From Clostridia bacterium (GTDB lineage: Bacteria; Bacillota; DTU025): a DNA stretch of 32,358 bases. The position numbers and the translations under genes are program-made. Of this stretch, positions 6,447 to 23,250 are shown in pieces. The stretch lies in assembly GCA_034926675.1 (NCBI GenBank), contig JAYFQW010000044.1, positions 1-32,358 on the forward strand, read 5' to 3'. Each line of letters opens with the position of its first letter. The stretch's first letter is position 1. Below the pieces are notes generated by a model, which searched no databases, was not told the origin of the DNA, and saw only the letters and a program-made list of their open reading frames with translations.

Positions 6447-6776
6447 TCAGGGCGCCAGATGCGCCTCCGTGCGCGCGCGCTCTACCACAGCTCGGACGAG
6501 TGCGATGGCCTCGTCGCGTGTTGGAACCCGCCCCAGCTCAGCACGGAGCTGCCCAACTATGGTTTTCACAATGCGCGAGGCGATTTCGTCCGCCTCGCTC
6601 GCGCACGCATGGCCAACCATCACGAGGCCACCATCAGCTACGATGATCGAGATGGAATGCTCATGCGCGTAGTCCCAGGCGCTAGGAGTGACAATAGTTC
6701 CTTTGGCCACATCGACCCGGTCTCCTGCCTTCTTTCCGGCGAGATCCGCTGCGGTAATCAGTGCGGGGTTCGGCAT
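6447..6776 (-). CDS. Small BMC-associated protein with EutQ/EutT-like N-terminal motif
   Basis: The 109-residue protein opens with ALITAADLAGKKAGDRV followed by KGTIVTPSAWDYAHEHSI. This resembles the conserved start of EutQ and EutT proteins (an LIT-x-DV segment, then IITP-x-A-x-D), known from ethanolamine microcompartments. The second half (about residues 60-109) is predicted to be helical and is unfamiliar to me. GGAGGTGAGCGT precedes the ATG. It follows the PduT-like gene by 92 bp and is the last gene of the BMC run before the 607-bp spacer. The same motif occurs at the end of the PduL homologue here, so it is probably a BMC adaptor or interaction module. It has no known catalytic role. 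Confidence 0.7.
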   Translation of the reverse strand: MPNPALITAADLAGKKAGDRVDVAKGTIVTPSAWDYAHEHSISIIVADGGLVMVGHACASEADEIASRIVKTIVGQLRAELGRVPTRDEAIALVRAVVERARTEAHLAP

Positions 6777-6868: not shown

Positions 6869-7414
6869 TCATATTGGGAACTCCAGTAGCCCACGGGCTG
6901 GCGCTGGGATGACCACGCTCTCGGTGAGAAGGCCTCGTGCTGATGCAGCTGCCCGAGCGGCCTCAACTGCCGCCTGCACTGCGCCGACCTCTCCAGTCAC
7001 CATCGAAAAGGCCTTCCCGCCGAGGCCGAGAGCTAGCCTCACCTCCACAAGATCGACTGCAGCGGCCTTCACAGCAGCATCAGCCGCAAGCACCGTAGAG
7101 GCGATGGAATAGGTCTCAACCACGCCCAGCGACTCTATGGAAGGCGGCGCCGCCACCCCCATGATCGTGGGCCAAACCGATGGGTGAATATTCGCAATGA
7201 CAAGCTGGTCTACAACGAACTGCCCGCCCGCATCCACCCCTGCGGCGACGGAGCTTTGAACCTCAGCGACACTCCCATACACCAGCACAGCGAACTTCCC
7301 CGGACACACAGGCTTCGCAGCATGGAGCTCCACGGAAGCAGCCTTCAGCATGGCATCCGCTGCAGCGTATCCTCGAGCGATGCTGATGAGTTCCACGATA
7401 CCTATTGCGTTCAC
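6869..7414 (-). CDS. pduT: PduT-like BMC-T trimeric shell protein with Fe-S cysteine
   Basis: The 181-residue protein has two tandem BMC domains: about residues 1-88, beginning IGIVELISIARGYAAADAML, and about 95-181, beginning LGVVETYSIASTVLAADAAVK. Such proteins form pseudohexameric shell tiles. Near residue 37 it has KPVCPGKFAVL, matching the PduT segment whose cysteine, one per subunit, holds a [4Fe-4S] cluster at the trimer pore. The following VDQLVIANIHPSVWPTI block is also PduT-like. The gene overlaps the PduS-like gene by 4 bases (ATGA), so the known electron-transfer partners are translationally coupled. The likely role is to pass electrons or an Fe-S centre across the shell. Confidence 0.92.
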   Translation of the reverse strand: MNAIGIVELISIARGYAAADAMLKAASVELHAAKPVCPGKFAVLVYGSVAEVQSSVAAGVDAGGQFVVDQLVIANIHPSVWPTIMGVAAPPSIESLGVVETYSIASTVLAADAAVKAAAVDLVEVRLALGLGGKAFSMVTGEVGAVQAAVEAARAAASARGLLTESVVIPAPARGLLEFPI

Positions 7415-8742
7415 AGCTCTATCAGCTCCTCATCGGCGCCGAACGCGCCATCAGCAGCGCCCCGCCCAGTTCCATAGCCATGCGCATTCCCGTGAGCGTC
7501 CCGAACGCACCCTGAGAGCCCAAGCCGAGCCACGAGCCTTGCCGACGGGATCAGTCGTCCCTTTCGCGCGGGGTGCACAACCTCGCCGCCGGAGGCGCCC
7601 CGCCACCTCACCTTGACCTGTGCCATCGCCTGCTTGATCTGCCCATTCACGCGACGCGGCGACAGCCCCATCGGACACACGAGGCTGCATACTCCACACT
7701 CGGTGCATAGCCCCGCCATGAGCAGGTCGGGGTAGCGGTCGAGATCATCGGGGAGGCTGGGTCGCCGGTAACCGAGGGTCCTCATTATGATATGTGGCCG
7801 CAGCGCGTGGCCCAACAGGAATCTGGGGCACGCATCAGTGCATTGCGTGCACTGTATGCACGCGGACTGGGCAAGCCTGACCTGATGGTCGATGGACTGC
7901 CTGCGCTCTGTGAGAATCGGATGCCCCCGTGGAACGAGTATAACCCCTGACGTGGTCTTGGTGACCACCACCGCCTCAAGGCTCCGCTCTGGCGGAATGA
8001 TAGTCCCCATCATGGGGCCATCTGCAAGCGCCTCATAGATGCGTTGGGGCTCAATCTGCCCTCCCGCCCGCGCAGCGCCCACAGTTCCGAACGTGCCGAG
8101 CCCGGCCTCACTGTGCCCATCCCTGGATGGCATGGGCCTGTAGCCGCCCGCAGCGTCGATCACCCGCGCGAAGCTAGTCCCCAGTGGCACACGATAGGTC
8201 CCCGGACGTGCCACCGCACCCCCAAGGGTAACGAACTTGTGAGTGACTGGCGATCCGTCGTCCACTGCACGCGCAACGTTCAGAAGCGTTTCCACGTTAT
8301 TCACAACTGCGCCAACATGAAGAGGGATTCCGCCCGCAGGCACGATTCGCCCAGTGAGCTCGTACACAAGAACGTGCTCGTCCCCTGCTGGGTAGAAATC
8401 GTCGAGCTCCCGGACAGCGAGACTTATGCCACTGATCGAATCCATCTTCGCAACGGCGGCCTTCATGGCCTCAACTTCGCGGGTGTTCTTGCGCTTGATG
8501 GCGATGACGCCCTTCTCGGCATTCACCGACTTCATCATGGCAACGAGCCCCGCAACGATCTGCCCGGGGTAGGCCCGCATCAATGCTTTGTCCTTGCCCA
8601 GGATCGGCTCGCACTCTGCGCCGTTTGCGATGACTATCTCAGCAGTTCCCTGGGCCTTGACATGGGTAGGGAACCCCGCGCCGCCAGCACCCACAACACC
8701 TGCGGCTTCGATTCTTCCTGCGTAAGATGGATAATCGCTCAA
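7411..8742 (-). CDS. pduS: PduS/RnfC-like flavin and iron-sulfur electron-transfer protein
   Basis: The 443-residue protein has the RnfC/Nqo1-like NADH- and flavin-binding fold, with a glycine-rich GVVGAGGAGFPTH at residues 15-27 and IANGAECEPILGKDKALM after it. A beta-grasp SLBB region follows (VTLGGAVARPGTY). Two ferredoxin-type [4Fe-4S] motifs come next: CIQCTQCTDACP (Cys 295, 298, 301, 305) and CTECGVCSLVCP (Cys 346, 349, 352, 356). This order matches PduS, described as a cobalamin reductase that binds PduT. No B12 enzyme occurs in this window, so a general NADH-oxidising electron conduit is the better reading here. Both ends overlap neighbours by 4 bases (pduL-like upstream, pduT-like downstream). 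Confidence 0.92.
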   Translation of the reverse strand: MSDYPSYAGRIEAAGVVGAGGAGFPTHVKAQGTAEIVIANGAECEPILGKDKALMRAYPGQIVAGLVAMMKSVNAEKGVIAIKRKNTREVEAMKAAVAKMDSISGISLAVRELDDFYPAGDEHVLVYELTGRIVPAGGIPLHVGAVVNNVETLLNVARAVDDGSPVTHKFVTLGGAVARPGTYRVPLGTSFARVIDAAGGYRPMPSRDGHSEAGLGTFGTVGAARAGGQIEPQRIYEALADGPMMGTIIPPERSLEAVVVTKTTSGVILVPRGHPILTERRQSIDHQVRLAQSACIQCTQCTDACPRFLLGHALRPHIIMRTLGYRRPSLPDDLDRYPDLLMAGLCTECGVCSLVCPMGLSPRRVNGQIKQAMAQVKVRWRGASGGEVVHPARKGRLIPSARLVARLGLSGCVRDAHGNAHGYGTGRGAADGAFGADEELIEL

Positions 8743-9764
8743 GCCGTAATCAGCTCCACTCCCCGCTGCCTCTTAGCATCCTGGGCAAGAGGTGTGATGA
8801 TAGCGCCCCTGCGAATCCTCACCGCACAGCCAGCGCGCCATGCCGTCAGGATGTCGTCCTCCGTAATCAGGCTGCGGAAGGTCAAGTCCATGGCCTGTGT
8901 TCGTGCTGGTGCGCCTGCGCCCCCGGTTTCACCGGCCCCAGCGACCCCGGCAGTCGCGCCAGCCGCAGCGGCCCGCGTGTCCGCCATTCCAGCTCGCGTG
9001 TCCGCCATTCCAGCTCGCGTGTCTGCCATTCCGGACCGTGCGTCTGCCATTCCGGCCCGCGTGTCCGCCATTCCGGCCTGGCCTGCTGGTGCGTGCGTCG
9101 GCAGTACGCCAGGCACAGCCCGTGCACCAACAGCCGCTCTGAGATCCATGATCCAGCCCATGTCACCGTTTGTGCATGCCGCGGCGTTGGCCTCATCGGT
9201 GTCGATATGGAATTCCAGACGATATGAACCGCTGACTCGGCAGAGCACGCCGTCGAACACAGTGCAGCGCCGGCCAGTGCCAGCAAGCACCGAAGCTAAG
9301 TCACCATCGGATAGGCCGAGCACCGTAGCGTCCAGCGGAGTCAGGTGCAGGTGCCTCGATGCAATGATCACGCCCTCTGACAAGGCCACTGAACCCTTCG
9401 GCCCAACCAGCACTGCGCCTGGAGAGCCGTGAACATCGCCAGAATCGCGAACCGGCGCTTGGATCCCGATGGCGATGCAGTCCGTGCCCGCAAGCTCGAC
9501 CTGGGTCACGCCCCGGGAAGGCCCGAGCACGCGAACCTGCGCTAACGCTCCTCGGGGACCCGCCACGACGACGATTTCCTCCGCAGCGAACTGCCCAGGC
9601 TGGGATAGTCCCTTTCTCGGCTGGAGTGCGTGGCCCGGTCCAAACAAAGCGGCAACATGCTCAGCCGAGAGGTGCACATGCCTCGCTGAAACACCGATCG
9701 GAACCGGTGCGCCACAGGCCGCGTCGAGAGCCGCCGCGGCCCTTCCGTTCTCGTAGCCCATCAT
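8739..9764 (-). CDS. pduL: PduL phosphotransacylase fused through a repeat linker to an EutQ-like motif
   Basis: PduL moves an acyl group between CoA and phosphate (here probably acetyl-CoA to acetyl-phosphate), recycling CoA inside the compartment. Residues about 20-197 hold the full PduL fold, with zinc-ligand histidines in SARHVHL (H29, H31) and ASRHLHLTP, and the late DTDEANA segment. An Ala/Gly/Thr-rich linker follows that contains five 7-residue units (GMADTRA, residues 231-265). Residues 299-339 form an EutQ/EutT-like module, LITEDDILTAWRAG then GAIITPLAQDAKRQRGV. At 341 residues it is over 100 longer than a normal PduL. I chose the ATG at 9764, because GGGGGG lies 7 bases upstream, over the TTG at 9779. 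It lies 24 bases after the BMC-H gene. Confidence 0.9.
   Translation of the reverse strand: MMGYENGRAAAALDAACGAPVPIGVSARHVHLSAEHVAALFGPGHALQPRKGLSQPGQFAAEEIVVVAGPRGALAQVRVLGPSRGVTQVELAGTDCIAIGIQAPVRDSGDVHGSPGAVLVGPKGSVALSEGVIIASRHLHLTPLDATVLGLSDGDLASVLAGTGRRCTVFDGVLCRVSGSYRLEFHIDTDEANAAACTNGDMGWIMDLRAAVGARAVPGVLPTHAPAGQAGMADTRAGMADARSGMADTRAGMADTRAGMADTRAAAAGATAGVAGAGETGGAGAPARTQAMDLTFRSLITEDDILTAWRAGCAVRIRRGAIITPLAQDAKRQRGVELITA
8970..9074. repeat. Five in-frame 21-bp repeats in the PduL linker
   Basis: Five consecutive 21-bp units encode GMADTRA, with one copy altered to GMADARS. On the plus strand the core reads GTGTCCGCCATTCCAGCTC with small changes. The copies are very similar at DNA level, implying recent slippage or duplication, and the copy number probably varies between strains. 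The product is a flexible tether between the PduL domain and the EutQ-like module. Confidence 0.9.
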
Positions 9765-9788
9765 GGGAGAGCCCCCCAAACGTCAGCC

Positions 9789-10082
9789 TTACTCCGCGTC
9801 CGAGCGCTGCCCCTTGTTGGGCAGGATCATCTCTACGTCTCCGTGTGGTCTCGGAATCACGTGGACCGACTTCAGCTCTCCAACCTTGGCTGCCGCTGCC
9901 GCTCCGGCCTCAACCGCTGCCTTCACTGCGCCGACATCTCCGCGGACCATGACTGTGACGAACCCTCCGCCAATCTGCTCCTTGCCAATCAGTCGAACGT
10001 TTGCCGCCTTCACCATGGCATCTGCCGCCTCGATGGCGCCAACCAGGCCGCGGGTCTCGATCATTCCCAATGCGATCTCCAT
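9789..10082 (-). CDS. BMC-H hexameric shell protein
   Basis: This 97-residue single BMC-domain protein starts [23 protein letters not shown]. It continues through [34 protein letters not shown] and ends in [16 protein letters not shown], the canonical sequence of the main hexagonal shell tile (PduA/EutM class). The residues around IGGGF would line the central pore that admits substrate. It is the only BMC-H gene in the window. AGGAGG, 7 bases before the ATG, is one of the strongest ribosome sites here, consistent with the most abundant shell component. It sits between the aldehyde dehydrogenase and pduL genes. Confidence 0.95.
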
Positions 10083-10193: not shown

Positions 10194-11789
10194 CTACAGC
10201 ATCCCGGCAAGTGCCGCGTCAACCAGACGCGCGATTGTCGCATCGTCTAGGCGCCGCAAAGCCTCGCGTTCTGCCGCCGTCGCCTGCAACACCCTGCCGC
10301 GCCCAGTCGCAGATCCAGTCGCAAACCCAGGCACAGGCTCACGCCCAGTCGCAGATCCAGTCGCAAACCCAGGCACAGGCACAGGCCTAGGCGCATTCCA
10401 ACCTGGAACCATGGTGCTCGCGGTCTGCGGAACTACTTCGATACCTCCAAGGTGGTATGCCAGGCGCTTCTTGTTTATCAGGTGCAGCGGTCCCACGTTG
10501 TCCGATGTGATGTTTCCGCCCCACGAACCGCAGCCTAAGGTGAGCGATGGGTCGAGCCCTGTGGATAAGCCTATGCCTCCCATGGAGGATGGGGTGTTCA
10601 CGAGGATCCGGTTCACCGGCTTCTTCAGTGCGAACTCCCTGATCACTCCCTCGTTTCGGGAATGTATGACCAGGGAATGGCCCAGGCCTCCGTAATTGAG
10701 CAGCTCAATGCAGCGCTCACATGCAGCCTCCCAGGTGGCCTCAGTGTAGAAGCCCAACACCGGGCAGAGCTTCTCCGCTGATAGTGGGTGCTCCCTGCCC
10801 ACTCCTGAGCATCTGGCAATGAGCACTCTGGCGCCATCCGGCACGGTGATCCCGGCGAGTCTCCCGATGAAAGCCGCGCTCTTCCCCACCACCGCAGCGC
10901 TCATGCCGCCGTTCGGCATCATAACAGTACGCTCCAAGGCCGCCTTCTCCCGCTCATCACAGATGTAGGCGCCCTGCGCGGAGAGCTCCCGAAGGACTTC
11001 AGCCTCGACCGCGATTTCCGCGACTATTGCCTGCTCCGACGCACATATCGTTCCATTATCGAAACTCTTGCTTGCCAGGATGTTCGCCACTGCCTGCCTA
11101 ACATCGGCAGTCCGCTCGATGAACGCCGGCACATTGCCGGGGCCGACGCCGAACGCAGGCTTGCCCGAACTGTAGGCAGCGCGCACCATCGCAGTTCCGC
11201 CTGTGGCCAGGATTGCAGCCACGAGCTTGTGGTGCATGAGCTCGTCGGTGGCCTCCATAGTGGGTCTCTCGATGCAGTTCACCAGGCCATCTGGCGCTCC
11301 CGCCTCGATGGCGGCGGCGCTCATGATCCGGGCCGCTTCAAACGTACACTTGGCGGCCCGCGGATGCGGGCTGAAGACTATTGCGTTCCTCGACTTGACC
11401 GCGATCAGAGCCTTGAAGATCGCAGTGGATGTAGGGTTTGTAGTGGGAAGAAGGCCTGCGATTACCCCTAGCGGGACGGCTATCTCCGCCACCTTCCTGT
11501 TCCGATCCTCGGAGATGAACCCCACGGTTCGAAGAGGCTTGATATGCTCCCACACGGTCTTGGAGGCGAACTCGTTCTTGGTGACCTTGTCCCGAACGAC
11601 TCCGATCCCGGTCTCCTCAACCGCCATCGCCGCAAGCTTGCCCGCGTTTTCGAAACCGGCTCGGGCCATCCGCTCGCACACACGGTCGATGTCCGCCTGC
11701 GTGAAATCGAGCAATCGCGCCTGGGCCTTGCTTGCCTTCTCCACAAGAGCCCGTGCCTCTTCAATGGAAGCGAGATCCTGGTCGGCCAT
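10194..11789 (-). CDS. CoA-acylating aldehyde dehydrogenase with C-terminal encapsulation helix
   Basis: This enzyme of the PduP/EutE class oxidises an aldehyde (here probably acetaldehyde from DeoC) with NAD+ and CoA to acyl-CoA. Visible blocks are [23 protein letters not shown] (about 106-128), [13 protein letters not shown] (about 213-225) and [15 protein letters not shown] with the catalytic Cys at 249. After the catalytic domain (about residue 460) there is a Pro/Gly/Thr linker with two 14-residue repeats (471-497), then an amphipathic helix, [20 protein letters not shown], to residue 531. Such a linker plus helix is typical of the peptide that targets cargo to a BMC lumen. The gene follows deoC by 6 bases and precedes the BMC-H gene by 111 bp. 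Confidence 0.93.
10299..10379. repeat. 42-bp in-frame duplication in the aldehyde dehydrogenase linker
   Basis: Two almost identical units encode [13 protein letters not shown](E). On the plus strand both copies contain GCCCAGTCGCAGATCCAGTC followed by GCAAACCCAGGCACAGGC, starting at 10301 and 10343. The duplication lengthens the tether between the catalytic domain and the terminal encapsulation helix. Confidence 0.9.
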
Positions 11790-11795: not shown

Positions 11796-12737
11796 TCAGT
11801 ACCCCTTCCCATCCTGGGCTACACCCTTGACAATGCTGACACTCGCACTCGCCCCCACCCTCGACGCCCCGGCTGCAACCATCTTCTGAGCGGTCTGAGT
11901 GTCGCGGATGCCGCCGGCTGCTTTCACACCCATGCTCACGCCGACTGTCTTCCGCATGAGCTCGACATCATGGACAGTGGCGCCGCCTGGTCCGAAGCCG
12001 GTGGAGGTCTTCACGAAATCCGCTCCTGCATACTTGGCGATGAGGCAGGCCTTGACTTTCTCCTCATCTGAAAGAAGGGCCGTCTCAAGGATCACCTTGG
12101 TCATGGCTTTTCCGGCGGCAGCATCCACCACGGCCTGGATATCCCGCTTCACCAGATCGTAGTTGCCGGATTTCACCGCTCCCACGTTGATGACCATGTC
12201 GACCTCCTGAGCTCCGTTCGCTATGGCGTCGCGGGTCTCGACAGCCTTCGCGGTCGGCGTTGTCGCTCCGAGCGGGAACCCAATCACCGTGCAAACCTTA
12301 ACACGCGACCCTCGCAGCATGGCTGCGCATTGGGCCACGTTGGTCGGATTCACGCATACGGAGGCAAACCCGTACTCCAGGGCCTCCTCGCACAACTTCT
12401 TCACCTGCGACTCAGTTGCATCAGGCTTGAGAAGCGTGTGGTCGATCATGGCCGCGAGACCCGCGCCGACCTTGGGCGTTCCCGGGTGCGCACTTATTCT
12501 GGCGGCGCCTGCATCCATCACCTGCCCGACAGCCAGAGGGTTCTTGCCCACGCACATCCCACACCCAGTGCATTCCCCTGATGCACCCTCGCACGATGGG
12601 CCGTGCGGGCCGTCCGAAGAGCGGCCTGAGCCCGAACCCATTTCAGCCCCTGCCCCGGCAGCGCTCCGCGACGACGCCGAGAGCATTGGCAGCATCTCTC
12701 GGGTAATTCGAGATATCAGTTCATCAAGATCCACCAC
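11796..12737 (-). CDS. deoC: Deoxyribose-5-phosphate aldolase with encapsulation helix and four-cysteine N-terminal extension
   Basis: DeoC cleaves 2-deoxyribose-5-phosphate to acetaldehyde and glyceraldehyde-3-phosphate. The catalytic domain (about 91-313) is complete: [36 protein letters not shown] (Asp180), the Schiff-base lysine in [15 protein letters not shown] (Lys243), and [10 protein letters not shown] (Lys272). Unlike ordinary DeoC of about 220 residues, it has about 90 extra N-terminal residues. These comprise an amphipathic helix, [18 protein letters not shown], a Gly/Ser linker and a cysteine cluster CX6CX2CX2C (Cys 49, 56, 59, 62). The helix looks like a BMC encapsulation peptide. 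The cysteines could bind Zn or an Fe-S cluster. The start is GTG at 12737 (or 12734), with GGAGGTG upstream. A perfect hairpin precedes the ribosome site. It is the presumed signature enzyme of the compartment. Confidence 0.95.
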
Positions 12738-12757
12738 ACAGCACCTCCAAGAGAGAC

Positions 12758-12793: not shown

Positions 12794-13084
12794 TTACAAC
12801 ACCTTCATGGTGCGGCCAGCCGCATCGACTCTATCTACAATCCCAACAATGGTTGCGTCAATCGGAGCATCCGCGCTCCTCATCGCCTGCCGTGAGGAGT
12901 TGCCCTCCGATACGACCACCACGTAGTCGCCCGCGCCCGCTCCGACTGTATCGACGGCCACGACCTCAGAGCCTGAGAGCGTTCCATCAGGCGAGCACAC
13001 GTCGCATATGAGGAGCTTCGAGCCTACGAAGTGGTCATTCTTCTGAGTGGCCACCACGGTTCCCACCACCATAGCCAGGTTCAC
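12794..13084 (-). CDS. EutN/CcmL-type BMC-P pentameric vertex protein (third copy)
   Basis: This protein of about 96 residues has the pentamer fold signature [24 protein letters not shown], then [27 protein letters not shown] and a final [13 protein letters not shown]. EutN/CcmL proteins close the twelve vertices of the shell. The frame opens at a GTG at 13099 that overlaps the previous stop, but I prefer the GTG at 13084. GAGGTG lies 7 bases before it, and the protein then begins at the usual family position. It is the third pentamer gene in under 1.5 kb. Confidence 0.92.
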
Positions 13085-13095
13085 CCTTCCGCACC

Positions 13096-13374
13096 TCACA
13101 CGTTCCGCACTACACGGCTCATGGTGTCGATGATACCTACCGCAGCCGCATCCACCGGCGCCATGGGAGCTGGAAGAGGCATCCCAGCCTCGCGGCCCCG
13201 AACGATGGTCACGAACTCATCGGCGCCAGCGCCGATCGTGTCCACAGCCACATGGGGTTTCCCAATAGGCCTGCCCGTCGAATCTACCTGCACCACAACA
13301 AGGAGTTTCGTCCCCGACAGGTTCGGGTCCTTCTGTGTCGCAACAACGTGCCCGATAACCTTAGCCGTGTACAC
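13096..13374 (-). CDS. EutN/CcmL-type BMC-P pentameric vertex protein (second copy)
   Basis: This 92-residue pentamer protein starts MYTAKVIGHVVATQKDPNLSGTKLLVVVQVD. It has HVAVDTIGAGADEFVTIVRGREA and ends in APVDAAAVGIIDTM. It begins with a GTG preceded by AAGGAG at 9 bases and lies 6 bases after the rpiB-like gene. It differs from the other two copies in the loop after the strand carrying the VRG motif (GMPLPAP) and lacks the SSARQ/SSRQA segment found in both others. Having three diverged pentamers may give vertices or cargo contacts of different types. Confidence 0.92.
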   Translation of the reverse strand: MYTAKVIGHVVATQKDPNLSGTKLLVVVQVDSTGRPIGKPHVAVDTIGAGADEFVTIVRGREAGMPLPAPMAPVDAAAVGIIDTMSRVVRNV

Positions 13375-13380: not shown

Positions 13381-13842
13381 TCACTCCTTGGGCGCAAAGC
13401 GCCGGCGCTCGAAATCGATGATCTTCGTCACCCTGCGCATGTGCCTCCCGCCCTCGAACTCTGTGGAAAGCCAGGTCCGAACGATCTCGCGGGCAAGGCC
13501 CCCTCCGATCACTCTCGCCCCGAGGGTGAGGACGTTCGAGTCATTATGCGCGCGGCTCATCATGGCAGTGAACGTATCTGAACACGACGCCGCTCTGATC
13601 CCCGCCACCTTGTTGGCGACAATAGCGGAAGCAGCGCCGATTCCGTCGATCATGATGCCCCTATCGCATACTCCTGCAGCTACAGCCTCTGCGACCAGAA
13701 ACGCGAAGTCGGGGTAGTCAACAGGATCTTGGCTGTGAGCACCGTAGTCGGCCACATCGTGTCCAAGCTCAGCGATGTATTTCTTGAGCTCCTCCTTGAG
13801 TGTAAACCCGCCGTGATCGGATGCGATGACAACCTTCATCAT
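13381..13842 (-). CDS. RpiB/LacAB-family sugar-phosphate isomerase lacking the catalytic cysteine
   Basis: This 153-residue protein of the RpiB family normally interconverts ribose-5-P and ribulose-5-P. Numbering lines up with E. coli RpiB without gaps through the active site. Asp9 and His10 (ASDHGG), His99 (SRAHNDSNVL), Arg133 and Arg137 are present. The family motif CGTGIG at 66-71 is replaced by DGIGAA, so the usual base Cys66 is Asp and Thr68 is Ile. ANKVAGIRAA follows normally. The start is ATG at 13842, overlapping the previous stop (ATGA), with AGGGAGG 6 bases before it. It sits between two pentamer genes in the BMC run. It may use Asp66 as base, act on a different sugar phosphate, or be non-catalytic. 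I therefore give no firm symbol. Confidence 0.9.
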   Translation of the reverse strand: MMKVVIASDHGGFTLKEELKKYIAELGHDVADYGAHSQDPVDYPDFAFLVAEAVAAGVCDRGIMIDGIGAASAIVANKVAGIRAASCSDTFTAMMSRAHNDSNVLTLGARVIGGGLAREIVRTWLSTEFEGGRHMRRVTKIIDFERRRFAPKE

Positions 13843-14201
13843 CGGCTGCCTCCCTGAACCCCAACACCATGAGCGCTGGTGGAGCCGCCGACGTCCGCCG
13901 AATCCTCCCGACCTTTGCGGAAGATCCACCTTCCCGCAAGCTCAATGGAATCGACAATAGCCATAATCGTTGCATCAGTTGGGGTATTCTGCGTCCGACC
14001 TGTCTGCCTAGCAGAGCTTCCTGCCACCACCAGGACTACCTCTCCCTGCCCCGCGCCAACAGAATCGATTGCCACCAGTGGCTTCCCATCGTCCGACATG
14101 TCGGTCATGTTCACTGGCTGCACCACAAGGATTTTCATCCCGATGAGCTTCTCGTCCTTCCGAGTGCATACTACAGTCCCAGTAACCCTCGCAGCGATCA
14201 A
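13839..14201 (-). CDS. EutN/CcmL-type BMC-P pentameric vertex protein (first copy, extended C-terminus)
   Basis: This 120-residue pentamer protein begins IAARVTGTVVCTRKDEKLIGMKILVVQPVN, then has LVAIDSVGAGQGEVVLVVAGSSARQT and PTDATIMAIVDSIE, which completes the fold near residue 90. About 30 further residues (RWIFRKGREDSADVGG onward) are not part of the family and could be a tail on one face of the vertex. The start is TTG at 14201, with an AGGGGGTGA-like ribosome site upstream. The gene lies 86 bp after the kinase and overlaps the isomerase by 4 bases. It is the first BMC shell gene of the operon. Confidence 0.9.
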   Translation of the reverse strand: MIAARVTGTVVCTRKDEKLIGMKILVVQPVNMTDMSDDGKPLVAIDSVGAGQGEVVLVVAGSSARQTGRTQNTPTDATIMAIVDSIELAGRWIFRKGREDSADVGGSTSAHGVGVQGGSR

Positions 14202-14287: not shown

Positions 14288-15256
14288 TCACGGTCGGCCT
14301 GCGAGGAAGGCCTCCACCTCATCGCGATGAGCGGTCGCAACGGATGTGCCGATCCTCGTGACCGATATCGCCGCCGCAGCGCACGCCCAGCGTGCAGCAT
14401 CGCGCATGCCCAAGCCCTCTGCAAGAGCCGCTGCGAGGGCGCCGTTGAACGCATCGCCCGCCCCAGTTGTGTCCACAACATCCACCTTGAATCCAGGCAC
14501 ATGCTGAGCACCGTTTGCATCCACTACCAGCACTCCGAGCCCACCCATGGTCACGATCACTGTCGGGCATCCTCTGCGGACTAGCGCCTTTCCAGCTAGC
14601 TCGGCAGTTGCCAGATCAGTCACCGTGATGCCGCTCACTATGCTGGCCTCAGTCTCGTTAGGAGTCAGCACATCCACAGCGCGTAGGAGCTCATCAGAAA
14701 GTGGTCTGCCTGGAGCCGGGTTCAGGATCACCTTGACTCCGCTAGCATGGGCGAGTTTCGCAGTGTATTCCACAGTCTCGAGCGGGATCTCCAGCTGCAT
14801 CAGGACATAGTCCGAGTCAAGGATCACTTGTATCCCCTTGTCCACATCGTCCGCACCTAGAGCGCTATTCGAGCCTGGGGCGACGACTATCATGTTCTCG
14901 CCCTTCGCATCATCCACTATGATGAGGGCGGCCCCAGTGCTCATGCCCTCCACGCGTTTCACGAACTCGACTCCTATGCCCTCTCTTAGCAGGTTGTTGT
15001 AGGCGAAGTCGCCGAACTGATCCTTCCCAAGCGAAACCAGAATGTTCACATCAGAGCCGAGCCTCGCCGCGGCCACAGCCTGGTTCGCGCCTTTCCCACC
15101 CGGCCCCATCTGGAACGGCCCGCCCATCACGGTCTCTCCCGGAACCGGGAGATGGGGTGAGCGGGACATCAGGTCAGTCATGAAGCTCCCCACTATGGTG
15201 ATCCTGGGCCTGCGTTCGGCTGTCCCAGGGTTCAACGATCCTCGTTCAACTGGCAT
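14288..15256 (-). CDS. Ribokinase/PfkB-family pentose kinase
   Basis: The 322-residue protein shows the PfkB layout: PRITIVGSFMTDLM near residue 20, GETVMGGPFQMGPGGKGANQAVAAARLG (first signature), NPAPGRPLSDE, LTPNETEA and VVDTTGAGDAFNGALAAAL, which holds the anion hole and catalytic Asp. It resembles ribokinase (ribose to ribose-5-P) and deoxyribokinase. With DeoC and an importer in the same operon, 2-deoxyribose or a related pentose is a reasonable substrate, but specificity cannot be read from sequence by eye. PsuK is a less likely alternative. AAGGAG precedes the ATG, and a small hairpin lies between it and the permease gene. A truncated relative lies at 23251-23493. Confidence 0.9.
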   Translation of the reverse strand: MPVERGSLNPGTAERRPRITIVGSFMTDLMSRSPHLPVPGETVMGGPFQMGPGGKGANQAVAAARLGSDVNILVSLGKDQFGDFAYNNLLREGIGVEFVKRVEGMSTGAALIIVDDAKGENMIVVAPGSNSALGADDVDKGIQVILDSDYVLMQLEIPLETVEYTAKLAHASGVKVILNPAPGRPLSDELLRAVDVLTPNETEASIVSGITVTDLATAELAGKALVRRGCPTVIVTMGGLGVLVVDANGAQHVPGFKVDVVDTTGAGDAFNGALAAALAEGLGMRDAARWACAAAAISVTRIGTSVATAHRDEVEAFLAGRP

Positions 15257-15306: not shown

Positions 15307-16152
15307 CTATCCTCTCATGGCGCCGAAGGTCAGCCCGCGCACCAGGTACTTCTGGAGGAGCATTGCAAGGATGGTGACTGGCAGCGATGTAAGCACCGAC
15401 AGAGCCGAGATCTCACCCCACATGATCTCGTGTCCGCCAACCATTCCGGATATGATGACTGGAAGGGTGACAGCTTTGGATCTTGTGAGGACCAACGAGA
15501 AGAGGAACTCATTCCATGAGAAGATGAAACAGAACAGCCCAGTGACGATCAGTGCCGGAACGGCCAGGGGAAGGGCCACGCGCCAGAACACCTGAAGCCG
15601 GTTGAAGCCGTCCACCAGGGCCGCGCCTTCGATGTCCGCTGGGATATCCTCGAAGAAACCCTTAGTGAGCCATACCGCAAACGGCAGGTTGAAGAGGAAA
15701 TACGCCAGTATCAGGGCCGCATGCTTATCCAGCAGACGCGCGTACCGCATTATCATGAAGACCGGTATGATCCCTGCAATGGGCGGCGCCATTCGGATAG
15801 AGAGAATCCAGAAGGAAAGCCCGTCTCCGCCAGTTTTGTACCTCGCTATTGAGTAGGCCGCAAGTGAACCCAGGACTACCGAGAGCACAGCTCCCGTGCC
15901 AGCCACAATCAGGCTGTTTCGTATTCCGCGGGCGCCGCCCCTATTTAGGGCGCTGGTGAAATTTGACCACTGCAGCTTCTTGGGGAAGAACACAGGAGGA
16001 TTAGTGTACACCTCTGATCGGGCCTTGAGAGAGCCGATGAACATCCAGTACACTGGGAACAAGTTTATGATCAGCAGGACGGCTATCGCAGCATATACAA
16101 GAACGTTCGTCGACTTCCTGCGCTTTCTCGTCTCGATTGTATTCATGCTCAT
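15307..16152 (-). CDS. Sugar ABC transporter permease, MalG-like (CUT1)
   Basis: This 281-residue inner-membrane protein has about six hydrophobic helices, the first at VLVYAAIAVLLIINLFPVYWMFI. It has the EAA loop that docks on the ATPase, DIEGAALVDGFNRLQVFWRVALPLAVPAL, as in MalG/UgpE-type permeases. The C-terminus, LLQKYLVRGLTFGAMRG, is typical of the family. Its start overlaps the partner permease by 4 bases. It forms the heterodimeric channel with the next upstream gene for import of the sugar used by the BMC pathway. Confidence 0.93.
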   Translation of the reverse strand: MSMNTIETRKRRKSTNVLVYAAIAVLLIINLFPVYWMFIGSLKARSEVYTNPPVFFPKKLQWSNFTSALNRGGARGIRNSLIVAGTGAVLSVVLGSLAAYSIARYKTGGDGLSFWILSIRMAPPIAGIIPVFMIMRYARLLDKHAALILAYFLFNLPFAVWLTKGFFEDIPADIEGAALVDGFNRLQVFWRVALPLAVPALIVTGLFCFIFSWNEFLFSLVLTRSKAVTLPVIISGMVGGHEIMWGEISALSVLTSLPVTILAMLLQKYLVRGLTFGAMRG

Positions 16153-17063
16153 GCCCTCCCTGGGGTCATCATCTTGACGAGTCTCTTGGATATGACAGTG
16201 ACTATCATCAGCTGGATGACCGCTAGTGCCGTGGCGTAGCCCATGCTGAAGTATCTGAACCCAGTGATATAGGTGTAGAGGCTCACCGACTCAGATGACG
16301 ACCCCGGGCCGCCTCCTGTAAGCAGAAACACCAGGTCGAAGATTTTGAACACGTCCATTACCCGAAAGAGCGTAACAATGATAATCGTAGGCTTCAGCAG
16401 AGGCAGAGTCACGCGCCAGAACACCTTCATTGGAGACGCGCCGTCCACGTTGGCGGCCTCGTACACCCTCGGGGAGATCGACTGCAGGCCAGCTAGGAGA
16501 ACAACCGTGACGAACGGTGTCCACTGCCAGACCTCAGCGATCAGGATCGACAGGAGAGCAGTGGAGGTGTCAGCAAGCCATGCCCTCCCGTTGCCAAGAT
16601 GCAGAAGCCTGATGATGTAGTTCAGAGGACCAAAGGACTCGTGGTAGATTACCCGCCACTGGAACCCGACAACAACAGGGGCGATGGTGATCGGTATCAG
16701 GAACAAAGACGTGACTAGCTTCTTCAATCGAAACTCCCTGTTGAGCAGCAGGGCCGTGATCAGCCCGAACAGCAGCTGCAGCCCGACTCCACCTACGAGG
16801 AGGATCAGTGTGTTCTTCATGGAATTCCAGAACCTAGCATCAGTGAGAACCTGTATGTAGTTGGCAAGCCATGCGAACTTCGGCGGGGCCGCCGACACTA
16901 ATTCCCAGTTGGTAAGGCTCACGCCGAACGTGAATAAGAGAGGTCCAATCGCCAAGACCAGCAGGATGATGACCGTCGGCGCAATGAAAAGCACTGGAAG
17001 CCGCTTGTCGATCCAGAGGCCGGAGTCGCTTTGTCCGCTTGCAGCAGCGGTCCCTCGGTTCAT
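16149..17063 (-). CDS. Sugar ABC transporter permease, MalF/UgpA-like (CUT1)
   Basis: This protein of about 304 residues has hydrophobic helices beginning with LPVLFIAPTVIILLVLAIGPLLF, and the EAA motif VYEAANVDGASPMKVFWRVTLPLLKP. The frame extends to a GTG at 17096, but AAGGAG lies inside that extension, 10 bases before the ATG at 17063, and the family homology begins after it, so I used 17063. The stop overlaps the second permease start (ATGA). The gap to the binding-protein gene upstream is 107 bp. Confidence 0.92.
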   Translation of the reverse strand: MNRGTAAASGQSDSGLWIDKRLPVLFIAPTVIILLVLAIGPLLFTFGVSLTNWELVSAAPPKFAWLANYIQVLTDARFWNSMKNTLILLVGGVGLQLLFGLITALLLNREFRLKKLVTSLFLIPITIAPVVVGFQWRVIYHESFGPLNYIIRLLHLGNGRAWLADTSTALLSILIAEVWQWTPFVTVVLLAGLQSISPRVYEAANVDGASPMKVFWRVTLPLLKPTIIIVTLFRVMDVFKIFDLVFLLTGGGPGSSSESVSLYTYITGFRYFSMGYATALAVIQLMIVTVISKRLVKMMTPGRA

Positions 17064-17170
17064 GATTGGGAGTCTCCTTTCCGCTGACTGATTCACACGT
17101 ACTCTAGGATGGGGCGAGGCGGCCTGCCCAGGTTGGTCGCAAACCGCCCCGCAGCAGCGCTAGGCGGCTG

Positions 17171-18619
17171 TTACCAGATGCCCAGTGCCTTCCATGTCTC
17201 GACTGTCTTCTGATAGAGTTCCTTCTGCTTCTCGGCGCCGAGCTTCTTGGTGATCTGCTCCCACTCCTTGGCTGCGGCGTCGAGCGCGGCCTTGGACGAC
17301 ATCTCGCCACTCAGAGCCTTGTTGATGTACAGGTCAAGGACATCCTGGTAATTGCCTGCTCCGGGCAGGTTGATCTCTGGGAATGCATTCTCTAGGTTCT
17401 CGCCGACCACCGCAAGGTAATCCTTCGCGGCTTCCTCGGTACCGAGGAGGGCAGCGAAAGCCTTCGGGTTGGCCACGTGGGACTTACGGTACGGGTCGAG
17501 GCCAGTCTCTGAGGTGGATACGTCGTGGAGGCTCGTCTCAACCGAGAGATACCTGGCGACAGCGTACGCAGCCTCTGGGTTTCTGGCGCTCTTAGGAACA
17601 GCCAGGACGCGGCCGACCGGCATCGGGGCGCTCCTTACGATCTTATCGCCAGTCTTGATGCCAGGCATCAGGGCGATGCCCGACTTGTTCACGATCTTGG
17701 ACTCGGCAGGGTCCTGCGCCTTCTTCTGAACGTCGGACCACTGCACCATCATCGCGACCTTGCCATCGAGATAGGCGTTCTTGAGCTCCTCATAACCGTA
17801 AGCCATCACGTCCGGCGGTGAGTACTTGATGCTCGTCTTCATGAGATCAAGGGCCTTCACGCCCTTGTCCGTGTTGATCATGGGCTTCATGTTCTCATCG
17901 AAATACACGCCGCCCAGGCTTCCGAACCTTGCCAGCCACCAGGCGTAGGAGAAACCGCGGGCCGCGAGCTCGGCAGAGCCGTAGAAGTCCTCCTTCAGAG
18001 CCTGACCGGCAAGGGTCTCACCCTTCTTGCGGGTGAAGAACTTAGCGATGTCGTTGAACTGATCCCAAGTATCGGGGACCTTCAGCTCGTAGCCGAACTG
18101 CTTCTTGAAGTTCGCCTTCTCAGTCGCGTTGACAAATAGATCCTTGCGGTAGTACAGGTTCAGGACGTCGCCGTCGTACGGAAGCGCGTAAAGCTTGCCG
18201 CCGTACTTGCAGTTGAGTTCGCGCACTCCAGTCGAGATGTCGTCGAGCTTGGGATCGTACTTCTTCGCATATGTATCGAGCTGGGTTAGGTATCCGAGCC
18301 CTGCGAACTCTCCGAGGAATGCGGGGTAGAATATGACCAGGTCATACGCGCCAGTCTGTCCGATGAACTCCGTCTTCAGTTTCTCGTAGACGCTGGTGAA
18401 GGGGACTCCCACCACCTCGTCGATGATGATCCCGAACTCGTTCTTGATGTTGTCCTTGTACCAGTCGAAGGGCTTGAGGTTATGTCCGGCATCACCGAAC
18501 ACCGTTATCTTAACGTTGTTGAACGGCTTGGCAGGAGCGCTCAGGGCGGCGGTTCCGCCGGTCATAAGCGCCACAGCGAGAACAACCAGCACCAGGAGCA
18601 TTAACCTGTTCTTCTTCAT
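17171..18619 (-). CDS. Extracellular sugar-binding protein of ABC transporter (family 1)
   Basis: The 482-residue protein begins with a Sec signal peptide (MKKNRLMLLVLVVLAVALMTGG, then AALSA). The mature part resembles family 1 solute-binding proteins: KITVFGDAGHNLKPFDWYKDNI, YDLVIFYPAFLGEFAGLGYLTQLD, YALPYDGDVLNLYYRKDLF and a late MPVGRVLAVPKSARNPEAAYAVARYLS. I see no lipobox cysteine, so its attachment to the cell surface is unclear. It captures the sugar outside the membrane. GGAGGT lies 10 bases before the ATG. The 202-bp gap upstream, the longest inside the operon, may hold an extra promoter. Confidence 0.92.
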   Translation of the reverse strand: MKKNRLMLLVLVVLAVALMTGGTAALSAPAKPFNNVKITVFGDAGHNLKPFDWYKDNIKNEFGIIIDEVVGVPFTSVYEKLKTEFIGQTGAYDLVIFYPAFLGEFAGLGYLTQLDTYAKKYDPKLDDISTGVRELNCKYGGKLYALPYDGDVLNLYYRKDLFVNATEKANFKKQFGYELKVPDTWDQFNDIAKFFTRKKGETLAGQALKEDFYGSAELAARGFSYAWWLARFGSLGGVYFDENMKPMINTDKGVKALDLMKTSIKYSPPDVMAYGYEELKNAYLDGKVAMMVQWSDVQKKAQDPAESKIVNKSGIALMPGIKTGDKIVRSAPMPVGRVLAVPKSARNPEAAYAVARYLSVETSLHDVSTSETGLDPYRKSHVANPKAFAALLGTEEAAKDYLAVVGENLENAFPEINLPGAGNYQDVLDLYINKALSGEMSSKAALDAAAKEWEQITKKLGAEKQKELYQKTVETWKALGIW

Positions 18620-18690
18620 GATTTGGCTGACCTCCTCGGCAATGACTTAGTCTCGCATCAGTCAACTCAGACCCACAGCGATTTCCTCTA

Positions 18691-18704
18691 CGCGTCTGGA
18701 CGCG
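18691..18704 (-). promoter_or_regulatory. Small hairpin in the 202-bp gap between ATPase and binding-protein genes
   Basis: CGCGTC and GACGCG flank two bases (6-bp arms). A second short dyad, GGCC with five bases then GGCC, lies near 18783-18795. The gap 18620-18821 has no open frame with homology. The dyads may act as mRNA processing elements that raise binding-protein expression, but the pattern alone is weak. Confidence 0.3.
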
Positions 18705-18821
18705 ACTCTCCCTGTTCCCCTCCTCACCTCCCCACGGTAATCAATCGCGCGAAGGGACTAGCGGTTGGTCCGCGCACAGGCTGGCCTCGACGGCCGAACC
18801 GCGAGCACGCTCATGCATCTA

Positions 18822-19919
18822 TCAGCAGAACATGTTGACGCCGGTCTCTTGATCGAACAGATGCATATGGCGGGGATCGATCTTGAGGCCAAGATCCTCG
18901 CCTGGGTTCGCAGAATCATCAGGGGTTGTCTCGACCCTCACCATTGAACCGTTGAGTTGAAGCGTGATGATGGCCGTATCTCCTAGGCCTTCAAACGCCA
19001 GCACTCTGGCCGTGAGGTCTCCACACGATTGGCCTGCCCTCTCAGACTGCACGTGCATTGGCCTGACTCCAAACACCGCTCGAGATCCGATAGCCCGGGA
19101 AGCAGCATCCGCGAGACGCTTATCGGAGATTCTAATTGCGAACCCGCTGCCTTTCAGGGCCACGCCGCTCCCGTCTCGTTCAACATTCACGTCAAGGAGG
19201 TTCATGGGCGGCTCCCCAACAAAGTCAGCAACGAAGAGGTTCGCCGGCTTGCTGAAGACCTCTCGGGGAGTTGCGACCTGCTGGAGCACGCCTTTGTTCA
19301 TGACCGCTATTCTGTCGGCCATTGCCATGGCCTCGATCTGATCGTGGGTGACGAAAATGATGGTGAGCCCCTTCAGCTGATGCAGCCTCTTCAGCTCGCT
19401 TCTGAGCTGGCTTCGCTGCTTCGCATCCAGGTGAGACAGGGGTTCATCCATCAGATACACCCGTGCTGGCCTCACCATGGCACGCGCGAACGAAATCCTC
19501 TGCTGCTGCCCGCCACTTAGGTTCCGTGGCAGGCTTGTCAGGGCATCGGAGATGCTCAGCATGTCGGTGATTTCCCGCACATGCTTGTCGACTTCTGAAT
19601 TCGACATCCCGCGGATTCTCAGCGGGAAGGCGATGTTCTCGTATGCTGTAAGGTGAGGGTAGAGCGCGTACGACTCGAACGCCATGGCGATATCTCGATG
19701 CCTTGGCTCGAGATCGTTCACAACCTCCCCATCGATTGTGATGACGCCCTGGGTCGCCTTCTCCAAGCCTGCGATCATACGGAGCGTCGAGCTCTTGCCG
19801 CACCCTGACGGGCCGAGGAGCGCCAGAAACTCGCCCTCGTTGCATGTGAGGTTGAGATCCTTGACCGCCTCGACGTTTCCGTAGTGCTTCCACACATTCC
19901 GAAGAACCACAGTTCCCAT
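18822..19919 (-). CDS. Sugar ABC transporter ATP-binding protein (second)
   Basis: This 365-residue ATPase has Walker A GPSGCGKSST, the signature NLSGGQQQRISFARAM, Walker B RVYLMDEPLSHLDA and switch histidine IIFVTHDQIEAMAMADR, followed by a C-terminal regulatory OB domain (about 235-365), as in MalK/UgpC proteins. The start is ATG at 19919, with AAGGGAGAG close upstream; the TTG at 19925 is less suitable. Together with the preceding ATPase gene it implies a heterodimeric motor, as in the two-ATPase glycerol-type CUT1 systems, rather than the common single-ATPase arrangement. Confidence 0.94.
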   Translation of the reverse strand: MGTVVLRNVWKHYGNVEAVKDLNLTCNEGEFLALLGPSGCGKSSTLRMIAGLEKATQGVITIDGEVVNDLEPRHRDIAMAFESYALYPHLTAYENIAFPLRIRGMSNSEVDKHVREITDMLSISDALTSLPRNLSGGQQQRISFARAMVRPARVYLMDEPLSHLDAKQRSQLRSELKRLHQLKGLTIIFVTHDQIEAMAMADRIAVMNKGVLQQVATPREVFSKPANLFVADFVGEPPMNLLDVNVERDGSGVALKGSGFAIRISDKRLADAASRAIGSRAVFGVRPMHVQSERAGQSCGDLTARVLAFEGLGDTAIITLQLNGSMVRVETTPDDSANPGEDLGLKIDPRHMHLFDQETGVNMFC

Positions 19920-19951
19920 AGACAACTCTCCCTTGCGGCAACAGTCGTCGG

Positions 19952-21046
19952 CTAGATGATCCTGAGGCCCGACGCCGCGTCGAAAACATGGAGCCTATCC
20001 TGGGCCAGCTCAATCCATACGACATCCCCGATATTGGCGGTGTATTCATCGGAGACCCTGATCTTCCATAGACTCCCGCCGATCTTGACGGTGAGCACCG
20101 CAACTCCGCCGAGGGGTTCCAGAACGTACACCTCTGCCCTGAAGCCTCGGCCCTTCGCCGGCTCGTTTGTCACTCTTATGTCGCCTGGGCGTATGCCGAT
20201 ATGCACCTCTCCAGAGTTCGGCATGCGGCCAATGGCTGGCAGAATCGACTCTGGCACAGGCATCGAGAACCACTGCGAATCGAAGTGGACGCCGCCATCC
20301 TTGTGAACCAGAGAACACGGCAGCAGGTTCATGGGAGGTTCGCCGATCAAATCGGCAACTCTCTCGTTCGCCGGTTCATAGTAGATCTGCGACGGAGTTC
20401 CGACCTGCTGGACCTCGCCCTTCATCAGCACCAGCATTCTGTCGGCGAGGGCCATGGCCTCGCGGAAGTCGTGCGTCACATACAGCGTCGACGTTCCCAA
20501 CTCACTGTGCATCCTGCGGAGTTCACGCCTCATCTCGTGACGCAGCTTGGCGTCGAGGTGAGTGAGGGGTTCATCCATCAGGTACACGTCGGCTTGCTTG
20601 ATTAGGGCTCGTCCGAACGACACTCTCTGCTGTTGACCGCCGCTGAGGTTCGCGGGTTTCCTATCGAGATACTGATCGATCTGGAGCATACCAGCTACCT
20701 GCTTCACTCGCTTGTCCAGCTCAGCCTGTGGCACGCGAGCGGCTCTGAGGGGCGATGCGATGTTCTCGTACACAGTCGCCTGAGGATAGAGAGCGTAATT
20801 CTCGAACACCATAGCCACGCGCCTCTGGCGCGGTTCGAGCTGGTTCACTTCCCTGCCACCGATGAAGACCTGTCCGGCTGTGATCTTCTCAAGCCCGGCG
20901 ATCATCTTCAGTGTGGTCGTCTTCCCAGCCCCCGATGGACCTAGGATCACTACGAACTCTCCGTCCTTGCAGTCAAGGCTCAGATTCTTGACCGCTTCCA
21001 GCTGACCGTATTTCTTGCTCACATTCTTGAGGACGACCTCAGCCAT
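19952..21046 (-). CDS. Sugar ABC transporter ATP-binding protein (first)
   Basis: This 364-residue MalK-like ATPase has Walker A GPSGAGKTTT at 36-45, the signature NLSGGQQQRVSFGRAL, Walker B VYLMDEPLTHLDAKL and STLYVTHDFREAMALADR, and a C-terminal OB-type domain with EVHIGIRPGDIRV. AGGAG lies 9 bases before the ATG at 21046. It is clearly diverged from the adjacent second ATPase, though both share the VGEPPMNLL/IGEPPMNLL segment after the nucleotide-binding domain. Two non-identical ATPases suggest a heterodimer. The gene lies 76 bp after the AllA-like gene. Confidence 0.94.
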   Translation of the reverse strand: MAEVVLKNVSKKYGQLEAVKNLSLDCKDGEFVVILGPSGAGKTTTLKMIAGLEKITAGQVFIGGREVNQLEPRQRRVAMVFENYALYPQATVYENIASPLRAARVPQAELDKRVKQVAGMLQIDQYLDRKPANLSGGQQQRVSFGRALIKQADVYLMDEPLTHLDAKLRHEMRRELRRMHSELGTSTLYVTHDFREAMALADRMLVLMKGEVQQVGTPSQIYYEPANERVADLIGEPPMNLLPCSLVHKDGGVHFDSQWFSMPVPESILPAIGRMPNSGEVHIGIRPGDIRVTNEPAKGRGFRAEVYVLEPLGGVAVLTVKIGGSLWKIRVSDEYTANIGDVVWIELAQDRLHVFDAASGLRII

Positions 21047-21122
21047 CAATCCCAACTCCTATCAGAGCATCTCCTCAAGGGACCAACTGCGCTGTCCGAT
21101 GTGTTGCCGTGGGGCATGGGCA

Positions 21123-21647
21123 TCAGAGAGCGATCTTGAATGTAACGCCGAGCTTCTCAGAGAAATTGAACATGTCGATATCTTCCGCCGGAGTTCCCCT
21201 GCGGAGTGCTAGGACAAGGTTGATCCTGTCTGCGAGCGGGAACGGCGCCCAGTGCCACACACCGACATTCAGATTCACTCCGAACGATCCATCGATGATG
21301 AAGGCCACGACTTTGGAAGGATCGGGCATGGCAGACGGATCAGCAGGGTCGCATGCTGGAGCGAGAGCGAAGATGAAGGCCTTGTTCTCCAGCGGGATGA
21401 ACGCCTCATCGCTGTGGACGTGCCGCTCCATCTCGCAGAAATCGAACGGGCGGAACATCGTGGTCAGGAACCCCAGCTCGGGCTGACATTTCCCGTGGTT
21501 GAGGTTCGCCACTTCGTCCCAGTAGTTGAGCACCCCGGGAATGTCGACAGACGGCGCCACACGCGGGGCCTTCAGTATGGCGCCGAAGGGTTTGAAGTTC
21601 TCTGGGGTAGGCTTGAACACCGGTACGATGATCTCCTTGGTCGCCAT
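21123..21647 (-). CDS. Ureidoglycolate lyase (AllA)-family cupin-like protein
   Basis: The 174-residue protein matches the AllA family: FKPTPENFKPFGAILKAP near the start, MERHVHSDEAFIPLENKAFIFALAP with the conserved H-x-x-S/D-E-A-F-x-P pattern, and VAFIIDGSFGVNLNVGVWHWAPFPL. AllA proper releases urea from ureidoglycolate in allantoin breakdown, but no other allantoin gene is present here. Between lacI and a sugar importer it may instead act on a sugar or sugar acid as an isomerase, epimerase or lyase. That is inference from position. GGAGGT lies 8 bases before the ATG. It starts 33 bp after the lacI gene and is the first structural gene of the operon. Confidence 0.82.
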   Translation of the reverse strand: MATKEIIVPVFKPTPENFKPFGAILKAPRVAPSVDIPGVLNYWDEVANLNHGKCQPELGFLTTMFRPFDFCEMERHVHSDEAFIPLENKAFIFALAPACDPADPSAMPDPSKVVAFIIDGSFGVNLNVGVWHWAPFPLADRINLVLALRRGTPAEDIDMFNFSEKLGVTFKIAL

Positions 21648-21680
21648 GACACTGCACCTCCAGAACGTAATTGTCGCACG

Positions 21681-22697: not shown

Positions 22698-22711
22698 ACT
22701 GTGATCCTCCG

Positions 22712-22727
22712 ATTCGTGTAAACGAAT
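22712..22727 (-). promoter_or_regulatory. Candidate LacI-family operator in the lacI leader
   Basis: ATTCGTGTAAACGAAT has 6-bp inverted arms (ATTCGT/ACGAAT) around four bases. It ends 15 bases before the lacI start, just upstream of the ribosome site. Size and symmetry suit a LacI-family dimer. I found no second copy elsewhere in the operon. A promoter should lie just upstream (about 22728-22860), but no -35/-10 pair is convincing. Confidence 0.55.
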
Positions 22728-23250
22728 ACAGACTTGGGAGGCCAATAAGTCGATAATCCAGGAGCTATACGGCGTTTTGTAGGAACAAATCCACTTGGTA
22801 CAGGTATTATGCTGTGGCAAGCGATATCGGACACCCACACAGGTCATGTATTCGATTACATTTTACCGGCGTGTTCTGTCACTGTCAAGCCCCGATTTGA
22901 GCCTTGAGCCTTGAATCCCGAATTTTGAGTGAATTCCTGCGCGAGGCGTGACCGAATCCCGGACCGACAATGCCGACGGATCCAGCAGTGAGACGAGTTC
23001 AATGTCGATGGAACCGACGTTGAAACGGCGGCAGTGTCGATAGATTGGACATTGAGGCCCTGCGGGTGTGCGGCCCGGCAAGATGGACGATTGGGAGTTT
23101 GCTTGGGCCGGCATGTGGGGGAAAATGGAATGCACGAATCAGTGCTAGACGCGGTTTCCCAACTGACCCCGCCGAACGATGGAAGTTACGGGAACCGCGG
23201 TCACGGACAACGAATCGTCAATGTCAACGAATTGGACACTGACCCCACGG
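22728..23250. other. Non-coding stretch upstream of lacI
   Basis: About 520 bp without a supportable gene. Open frames here have no family resemblance. There are loose internal echoes: GTCGATGGAACC at about 23005 and, outside the stretch, TTTCATCGACATTGAG at about 23293, plus several ATTGGAC words (about 23044 and 23231). These suggest a decayed, rearranged sequence next to the broken kinase gene. The lacI-proximal part probably holds the operon promoter. Confidence 0.5.

Follow-up and report, generated by a model that had tools for sequence, protein, structure and literature searches.

Whether the iron-sulfur proteins PduS and PduT export electrons from bacterial microcompartments (BMCs) is a question that has stood since 2010. 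It is raised by a locus in a 32,358-nucleotide stretch of DNA (C44:1-32358; hereafter, the window) from the genome of a Clostridia bacterium (3.38 Mb, 97% complete, 90 contigs), in which the two proteins are encoded together with an acetylating acetaldehyde dehydrogenase and without an alcohol dehydrogenase (ADH). How, then, would NADH formed in the lumen of such a compartment be reoxidized? We put at roughly 0.6 the probability that the locus encodes a sugar-phosphate-utilising (SPU) metabolosome in which luminal NADH is most likely oxidized by PduS, with electrons leaving via PduT to a cytosolic acceptor.

The BMC genes run along the minus strand, from 15256 to 6447, in the order ribokinase-family kinase, BMC-P, RpiB, BMC-P, BMC-P, DeoC, acetylating acetaldehyde dehydrogenase, BMC-H, PduL, PduS, PduT and a small EutQ-N-like protein (Table 1). 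Because this gene order recurs in the relatives G004, G005 and G008, the arrangement is not a matter of chance, and no BMC-domain genes were found outside the locus in the rest of the genome. The locus contains a DeoC-type PF01791 aldolase, an RpiB-type PF02502 isomerase, and an acetaldehyde dehydrogenase together with a PTAC, without an ADH. The combination of DeoC and RpiB with acetaldehyde dehydrogenase and PduL identifies it, by gene content, as an SPU metabolosome; a PDU metabolosome was not indicated, as the B12-dependent diol dehydratase and the ADH PduQ are absent from the window. The SPU type, a BMC for the degradation of deoxyribose phosphate, was named in 2014 (Axen et al. 2014, PMC4207490) and now comprises more than 280 loci from 26 phyla in seven subtypes (Sutter et al. 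2021, PMC8217296). The missing ADH of SPU loci, and the presence of PduS in some members, had already been noted in 2014 (PMC4207490). The upstream stretch with the importer and LacI regulator is probably linked to the BMC.

Table 1 Features of the BMC locus and its upstream stretch, in minus-strand order (window positions).
Feature	Position	Strand	Basis
Sugar ABC importer: permeases, binding protein, two ATPases; upstream of locus	15307..22847	-	Pfam
Ureidoglycolate-lyase-like gene and LacI regulator, same upstream stretch	15307..22847	-	Pfam
Ribokinase-family sugar kinase	14288..15256	-	TIGR02152 above cut-off; also upstream of locus in G004
BMC-P pentamer protein 1	13839..14201	-	PF03319
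RpiB-type sugar-phosphate isomerase	13381..13842	-	PF02502
BMC-P pentamer protein 2	13096..13374	-	PF03319
BMC-P pentamer protein 3	12794..13099	-	PF03319
Deoxyribose-phosphate aldolase DeoC, N-terminal amphipathic helix and C-x6-C-x2-C-x2-C motif	11796..12737	-	TIGR00126 above cut-off
Acetaldehyde dehydrogenase (acetylating)	10194..11789	-	TIGR02518, 647 bits (cut-off 620)
BMC-H shell protein	9789..10082	-	PF00936
pduL-type phosphate acyltransferase, C-terminal EutQ-N-like extension	8739..9779	-	PF06130; NF011652 above cut-off; alignment with relatives
pduS: FMN/NADH domain, SLBB, two [4Fe-4S] motifs	7411..8742	-	Pfam, model, tree, tail length
pduT: tandem BMC-domain shell protein (BMC-T), pore-loop VCPGKF	6869..7414	-	PF00936 x2; PDB sequence matches
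Small EutQ-N-like protein, behind pduT	6447..6776	-	Conserved in order relatives; without Pfam match

Other features of the locus and its surroundings were also apparent. The linker of PduL holds GMADTRA repeats, and its C terminus (window 8739-9090) repeats the EutQ-N-like domain found by itself in the separate small protein. The C-terminal tail of the acetaldehyde dehydrogenase may be an encapsulation peptide, its hydrophobic moment being not above that of shuffles. The third BMC-P gene and deoC are separated by a gap with a strong 10-bp hairpin and a T-rich tail behind it (window 12757-12779), which may act as an attenuator or an RNA-processing site to set the shell:enzyme ratio; such sites were no commoner than in shuffles. 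Downstream of the locus, a PsuG-like (Indigoidine_A) pseudouridine-5'-phosphate glycosidase (window 4883-5839), with no match in L039, L040 or L041, could supply ribose-5-phosphate. One family relative has a second SPU locus, separate from the first (G005:C56 and G005:C212; L040 and L054).

We examined the two proteins of the proposed conduit, for which the initial annotation had the coordinates, the pduS/pduT overlap, both [4Fe-4S] motifs and the PduT cysteine all correct. PduS (443 aa) carries Complex1_51K, SLBB and Fer4_17 domains (Pfam), and both motifs of its 4Fe-4S dicluster, CIQCTQCTDACP and CTECGVCSLVCP, are intact. Its gene adjoins pduT in the BMC locus with an overlap of 4 bp (GTGA, 7411-7414), and pduL overlaps pduS in turn (TTGA, 8739-8742). 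The structure model of PduS (pLDDT 85.9) found its best fold matches in RnfC, then NuoF/HydB. That PduS is the RnfC of a split Rnf complex was ruled out by domain order, by the BMC locus and by the tree, in which it groups with BMC PduS, apart from RnfC (one row labelled RnfC, L018, is the PduS of G037). Against the RnfC definition (N-terminal RnfC_N, TIGR01945) it reached 195 bits, below the cut-off of 246, and a separate RnfC is encoded elsewhere in the genome, on C90. Among 29 PduS proteins, the window's included, 41 columns are invariant, and each of the eight cluster cysteines is among them, as is the FMN loop; the glycine loop of the window PduS lies near residue 16, not at 105-171. From these conserved residues, the window PduS is predicted to oxidize NADH and to bind FMN.

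PduT (181 aa), the sole PduT-type shell protein in the genome, consists of tandem PF00936 BMC domains with a pore cysteine. It aligns over its full length with the PduT crystal structures 3pac and 3n79, which are, together with 3nwg, among its best PDB sequence matches, and the cysteine of VCPGKF stands opposite that of ICPGKF in 3pac. Against NCBIfam TIGR02526 it scored 124 bits, below the curated cut-off of 250; its anatomy and linkage therefore make it PduT-type, but that model does not class it as an equivalog.

The window PduS is unusual at its C terminus. We found no Pfam match in it to the RnfC_N-like barrel (SBHM) that is C-terminal in the other PduS read. In four proteins of the window's order (G000, G004, G005, G008), 69-87 residues follow the second cluster motif, compared with at least 130 in all other PduS for which both motifs were parsed (around 90 rows). 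The barrel is replaced by a short tail (residues 416-443), which is disordered in the model, and the short tails end EELIEL/EELVEV. Assembly error was ruled out, because L039, L040 and L041 end alike, and the 4-bp overlap with pduT also leaves the domain no space. The C-terminal barrel has been lost, and this loss is specific to the lineage of the window's order (window 7411-7540; L039, L040, L041). The activity of Citrobacter PduS is therefore not simply transferable to the window PduS.

A draw of 398 genomes from the phylum contained a PduT-like protein in 89, and 96 PduT loci were read over around 10 kb on either side, less at contig ends. PduS was encoded in all 96 loci and the pore cysteine in at least 94. 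An Fe-ADH, called by a purpose-built HMM that also recovered known ADH controls, was present in at most 14, so that 82 of the 96 had none within the DNA read. The same loci included PduC in 3 cases, EutB in 18, a glycyl radical enzyme in 13 and DeoC in 10, and most were without PduC/EutB. The premise of the initial annotation that PduS and PduT belong to B12-dependent systems is outdated, because the pair also occurs in B12-free systems.

The annotation had also stated that the window lacks an ADH, a B12 enzyme and a reactivase, and a Pfam scan indeed found none of them in the window genes that it covered. To what extent does this bear on electron export? When 84,980 species were searched with a DeoC profile, 80 named loci were obtained, of which 27 had two or more shell genes; from the DeoC-profile loci and the phylum loci, we compared 39 SPU loci. 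PduS was present in 16 and absent from 23, and no Fe-ADH was found in the DNA examined for any of the 39, with or without PduS. The absence of an ADH is a property of the SPU type and no evidence for a conduit in particular: because an ADH is likewise missing from SPU loci that have no PduS, its absence alone implies no conduit, and PduS as a strict ADH replacement is unsupported. Luminal NADH oxidation with electron exit, as first proposed, explains the locus most economically, but 82 of the 96 PduT/PduS loci are likewise without an Fe-ADH within the DNA read, and the reading is thus not peculiar to the window locus. The combination of PduS/PduT with no ADH is ordinary, and the view of it as unusual is corrected by the window locus; it is not by itself proof of electron export, although export is its likeliest reading. 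Among the SPU loci, L061 (CP070760.1, titled Candidatus Heimdallarchaeota bin272) is complete and includes PduS and PduT; the record is filed as an Asgard archaeon, and the locus may either come from a mislabelled bin or be a genuine archaeal BMC.

In the mechanism that we favour, an imported pentose, probably 2-deoxyribose, would be phosphorylated by the ribokinase-family kinase. The acetaldehyde dehydrogenase would yield acetyl-CoA and NADH, and PduL would convert acetyl-CoA to acetyl-phosphate, freeing CoA; an acetate kinase encoded elsewhere in the genome (on C1), which can use acetyl-phosphate, would then form ATP. Since the locus has no ADH, luminal NADH would most likely be oxidized by PduS, through FMN and then the two [4Fe-4S] clusters, and PduS would hand single electrons to a [4Fe-4S] cluster in the PduT pore for transfer to a cytosolic acceptor. 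We infer the substrate, the direction of electron flow and the acceptor. The PduS of Citrobacter, a protein with FMN and two [4Fe-4S] clusters that purifies together with PduT, oxidizes NADH (PMC2982820); given these data and the conservation, fold and tree position of the window PduS, NADH oxidation with exit through PduT is the best reading. It has a thermodynamic gap, because the potential of Citrobacter PduT, the sole measured PduT value, is +99 mV, far above low-potential Rnf and hydrogenase sinks. These are the sinks visible in the genome (rnfCDG and hydABC, the latter a bifurcating hydrogenase, both on C90), and no cytosolic acceptor for PduT electrons was identifiable there. The further claim of a 'fully oxidative' compartment is not established, as the PduT potential is too high for such sinks. 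A nitroreductase gene adjoining the locus was ruled out as electron acceptor, with no match in L039, L040 or L041.

An unlikely, though substantial, alternative is that the NAD(H) pool is not closed: NADH and NAD+ would cross the shell and be recycled by the cytosolic bifurcating hydrogenase and Rnf, leaving PduS/PduT a lesser role, for example in maintaining the reduced state of a luminal Fe-S or thiol site. Consistent with this idea, the many SPU loci without an ADH and without PduS/PduT must handle NADH otherwise, and the HydABC and Rnf genes are at hand in this genome. However, PduS-less SPU loci mostly have the large gated pore protein BMC-T(dp) (for example, L071:13991-14617), which is absent from the window locus and from the whole genome. 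Moreover, the PduT cysteine is retained wherever PduS is retained; no pore cysteine was found in the BMC-T of PduS-less SPU loci (L135 has VQPGKY, and L075 and L133 are without a CPGK match).

Across the 39 SPU loci, 16 had PduS/PduT, 15 had the gated BMC-T(dp), none had both and 8 had neither, several of the last being short or broken contigs (Fisher p = 2.5e-5 for the exclusion). Within SPU loci, this exclusion may reflect one ancestral split and no functional rule, and in the DeoC tree the PduS-positive SPU loci form nearly one clade. A general rule is ruled against by this near-single clade, by L160, a non-SPU EutB locus with PduS, PduT and BMC-T(dp) together, and by L234 (G281), a locus outside the 96-locus set whose 16-kb contig encodes BMC-T(dp) and a PduT with the cysteine, but no PduS.

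The sole DeoC of the genome, encoded in the window, also has a distinctive N-terminal region. Residues 4-27 form a helix in the structure model, and the cysteine motif follows at residues 49-62 (window 12552-12593), between this encapsulation helix and the aldolase domain. Immediately before the aldolase domain, a stretch of 24 residues held at least four cysteines in 21 of 27 BMC-linked DeoC, compared with none of 27 short cytosolic DeoC, and in alignments the motif occurs across phyla. It is a possible Fe-S or zinc site, and a literature search found no report of such a motif in BMC-type DeoC. We entertain, as a doubtful generalization, a scheme in which SPU compartments, ADH-less as a rule, dispose of luminal NADH by one of two mutually exclusive routes, either an Fe-S wire (PduS and the cysteine-bearing PduT) or a gated, double-layer BMC-T(dp) pore passing NAD(H)/CoA, and in which, in both cases, the DeoC motif binds an Fe-S cluster or zinc for redox control or assembly.

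Inward electron flow is an improbable alternative to export through PduS and PduT. Here, the acetaldehyde dehydrogenase would run in reverse, DeoC would condense acetaldehyde into sugar phosphate as a store of carbon and redox equivalents, and PduT/PduS would supply NADH, as put forward for Atribacteria (Nobu et al. 2016, as cited in PMC6281690 and PMC6776118). By contrast, the adjoining sugar importer, sugar kinase and LacI-type regulator, together with PduL and acetate kinase, fit catabolism, and a pore cluster near +99 mV cannot reduce NAD+.

The initial annotation had called for a search for a BMC-targeted ADH elsewhere in the genome. We found two Fe-ADH (PF00465) matches, on C57 and C69, the former a reading frame without its C-terminal part, and six ADH_N matches that resemble sugar or threonine dehydrogenases. 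All eight lie on other contigs, and no Fe-ADH or ADH_N protein in the genome has an encapsulation-peptide-like terminal extension. Aldehyde dehydrogenase can recruit an ADH that has no targeting peptide (PMC6325248), and any of these proteins might thus enter the compartment bound to another cargo enzyme; given the shortened C57 frame, the resemblances of the ADH_N proteins and the lack of any candidate near the locus, we regard this as very improbable. That PduS and PduT are functionless relics of an ancestral pdu-like locus, a possibility raised in Axen 2014 (PMC4207490), is scarcely credible, because 29 divergent PduS share the same cofactor residues without exception and the pair occurs together in 96 of 96 loci.

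Taken together, the conduit interpretation is plausible, neither proven nor new. Electron exit had already been published (Axen 2014, Ferlez 2019, Burrichter 2021): a review has discussed PduS/PduT of B12-free GRM loci as a potential path for electrons (Ferlez et al. 2019, PMC6325248), and the hypothesis has been set out for an ADH-less, B12-free BMC in Bilophila (Burrichter et al. 2021, PMC8667426). PduS/PduT without an ADH is an arrangement known from the literature, and the window is one more lineage with it. The new details are the barrel loss in PduS, the DeoC cysteine motif and the non-co-occurrence of PduS/PduT and BMC-T(dp) in SPU loci. With a single BMC-T and without an ADH, a B12 enzyme or a glycyl radical enzyme, the competing roles of PduS/PduT (corrin reduction and activase reduction) are removed, and the SPU type is therefore a cleaner test bed than Pdu or GRM systems.

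Comparison with known systems places the window locus among them. RnfC (Rnf complexes 9eri, 8rbm and 7zc6) shares the fold and the NADH/FMN domain with the window PduS, but is a membrane complex subunit with an N-terminal barrel and forms a separate clade. The Citrobacter/Salmonella Pdu system (PMC2982820) shares the PduS domains (FMN, two [4Fe-4S]) and the PduT pore cysteine; unlike the window locus, it is B12-dependent and has the ADH PduQ, and its PduS is a corrin reductase. The isethionate GRM BMC of Bilophila wadsworthia (PMC8667426) resembles the window locus in having PduS and PduT while being B12-free and without an ADH, but its signature is a glycyl radical enzyme and its substrate is isethionate. 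Compared with SPU loci (PMC4207490, PMC8217296), the window locus differs in a PduS without the C-terminal barrel, a PduL with a C-terminal EutQ-N-like extension and the lack of BMC-T(dp). It shares with them the DeoC and RpiB signature, the acetaldehyde dehydrogenase, PduL, the BMC-P triplet and the absence of an ADH and, with the Atribacteria members, PduS.
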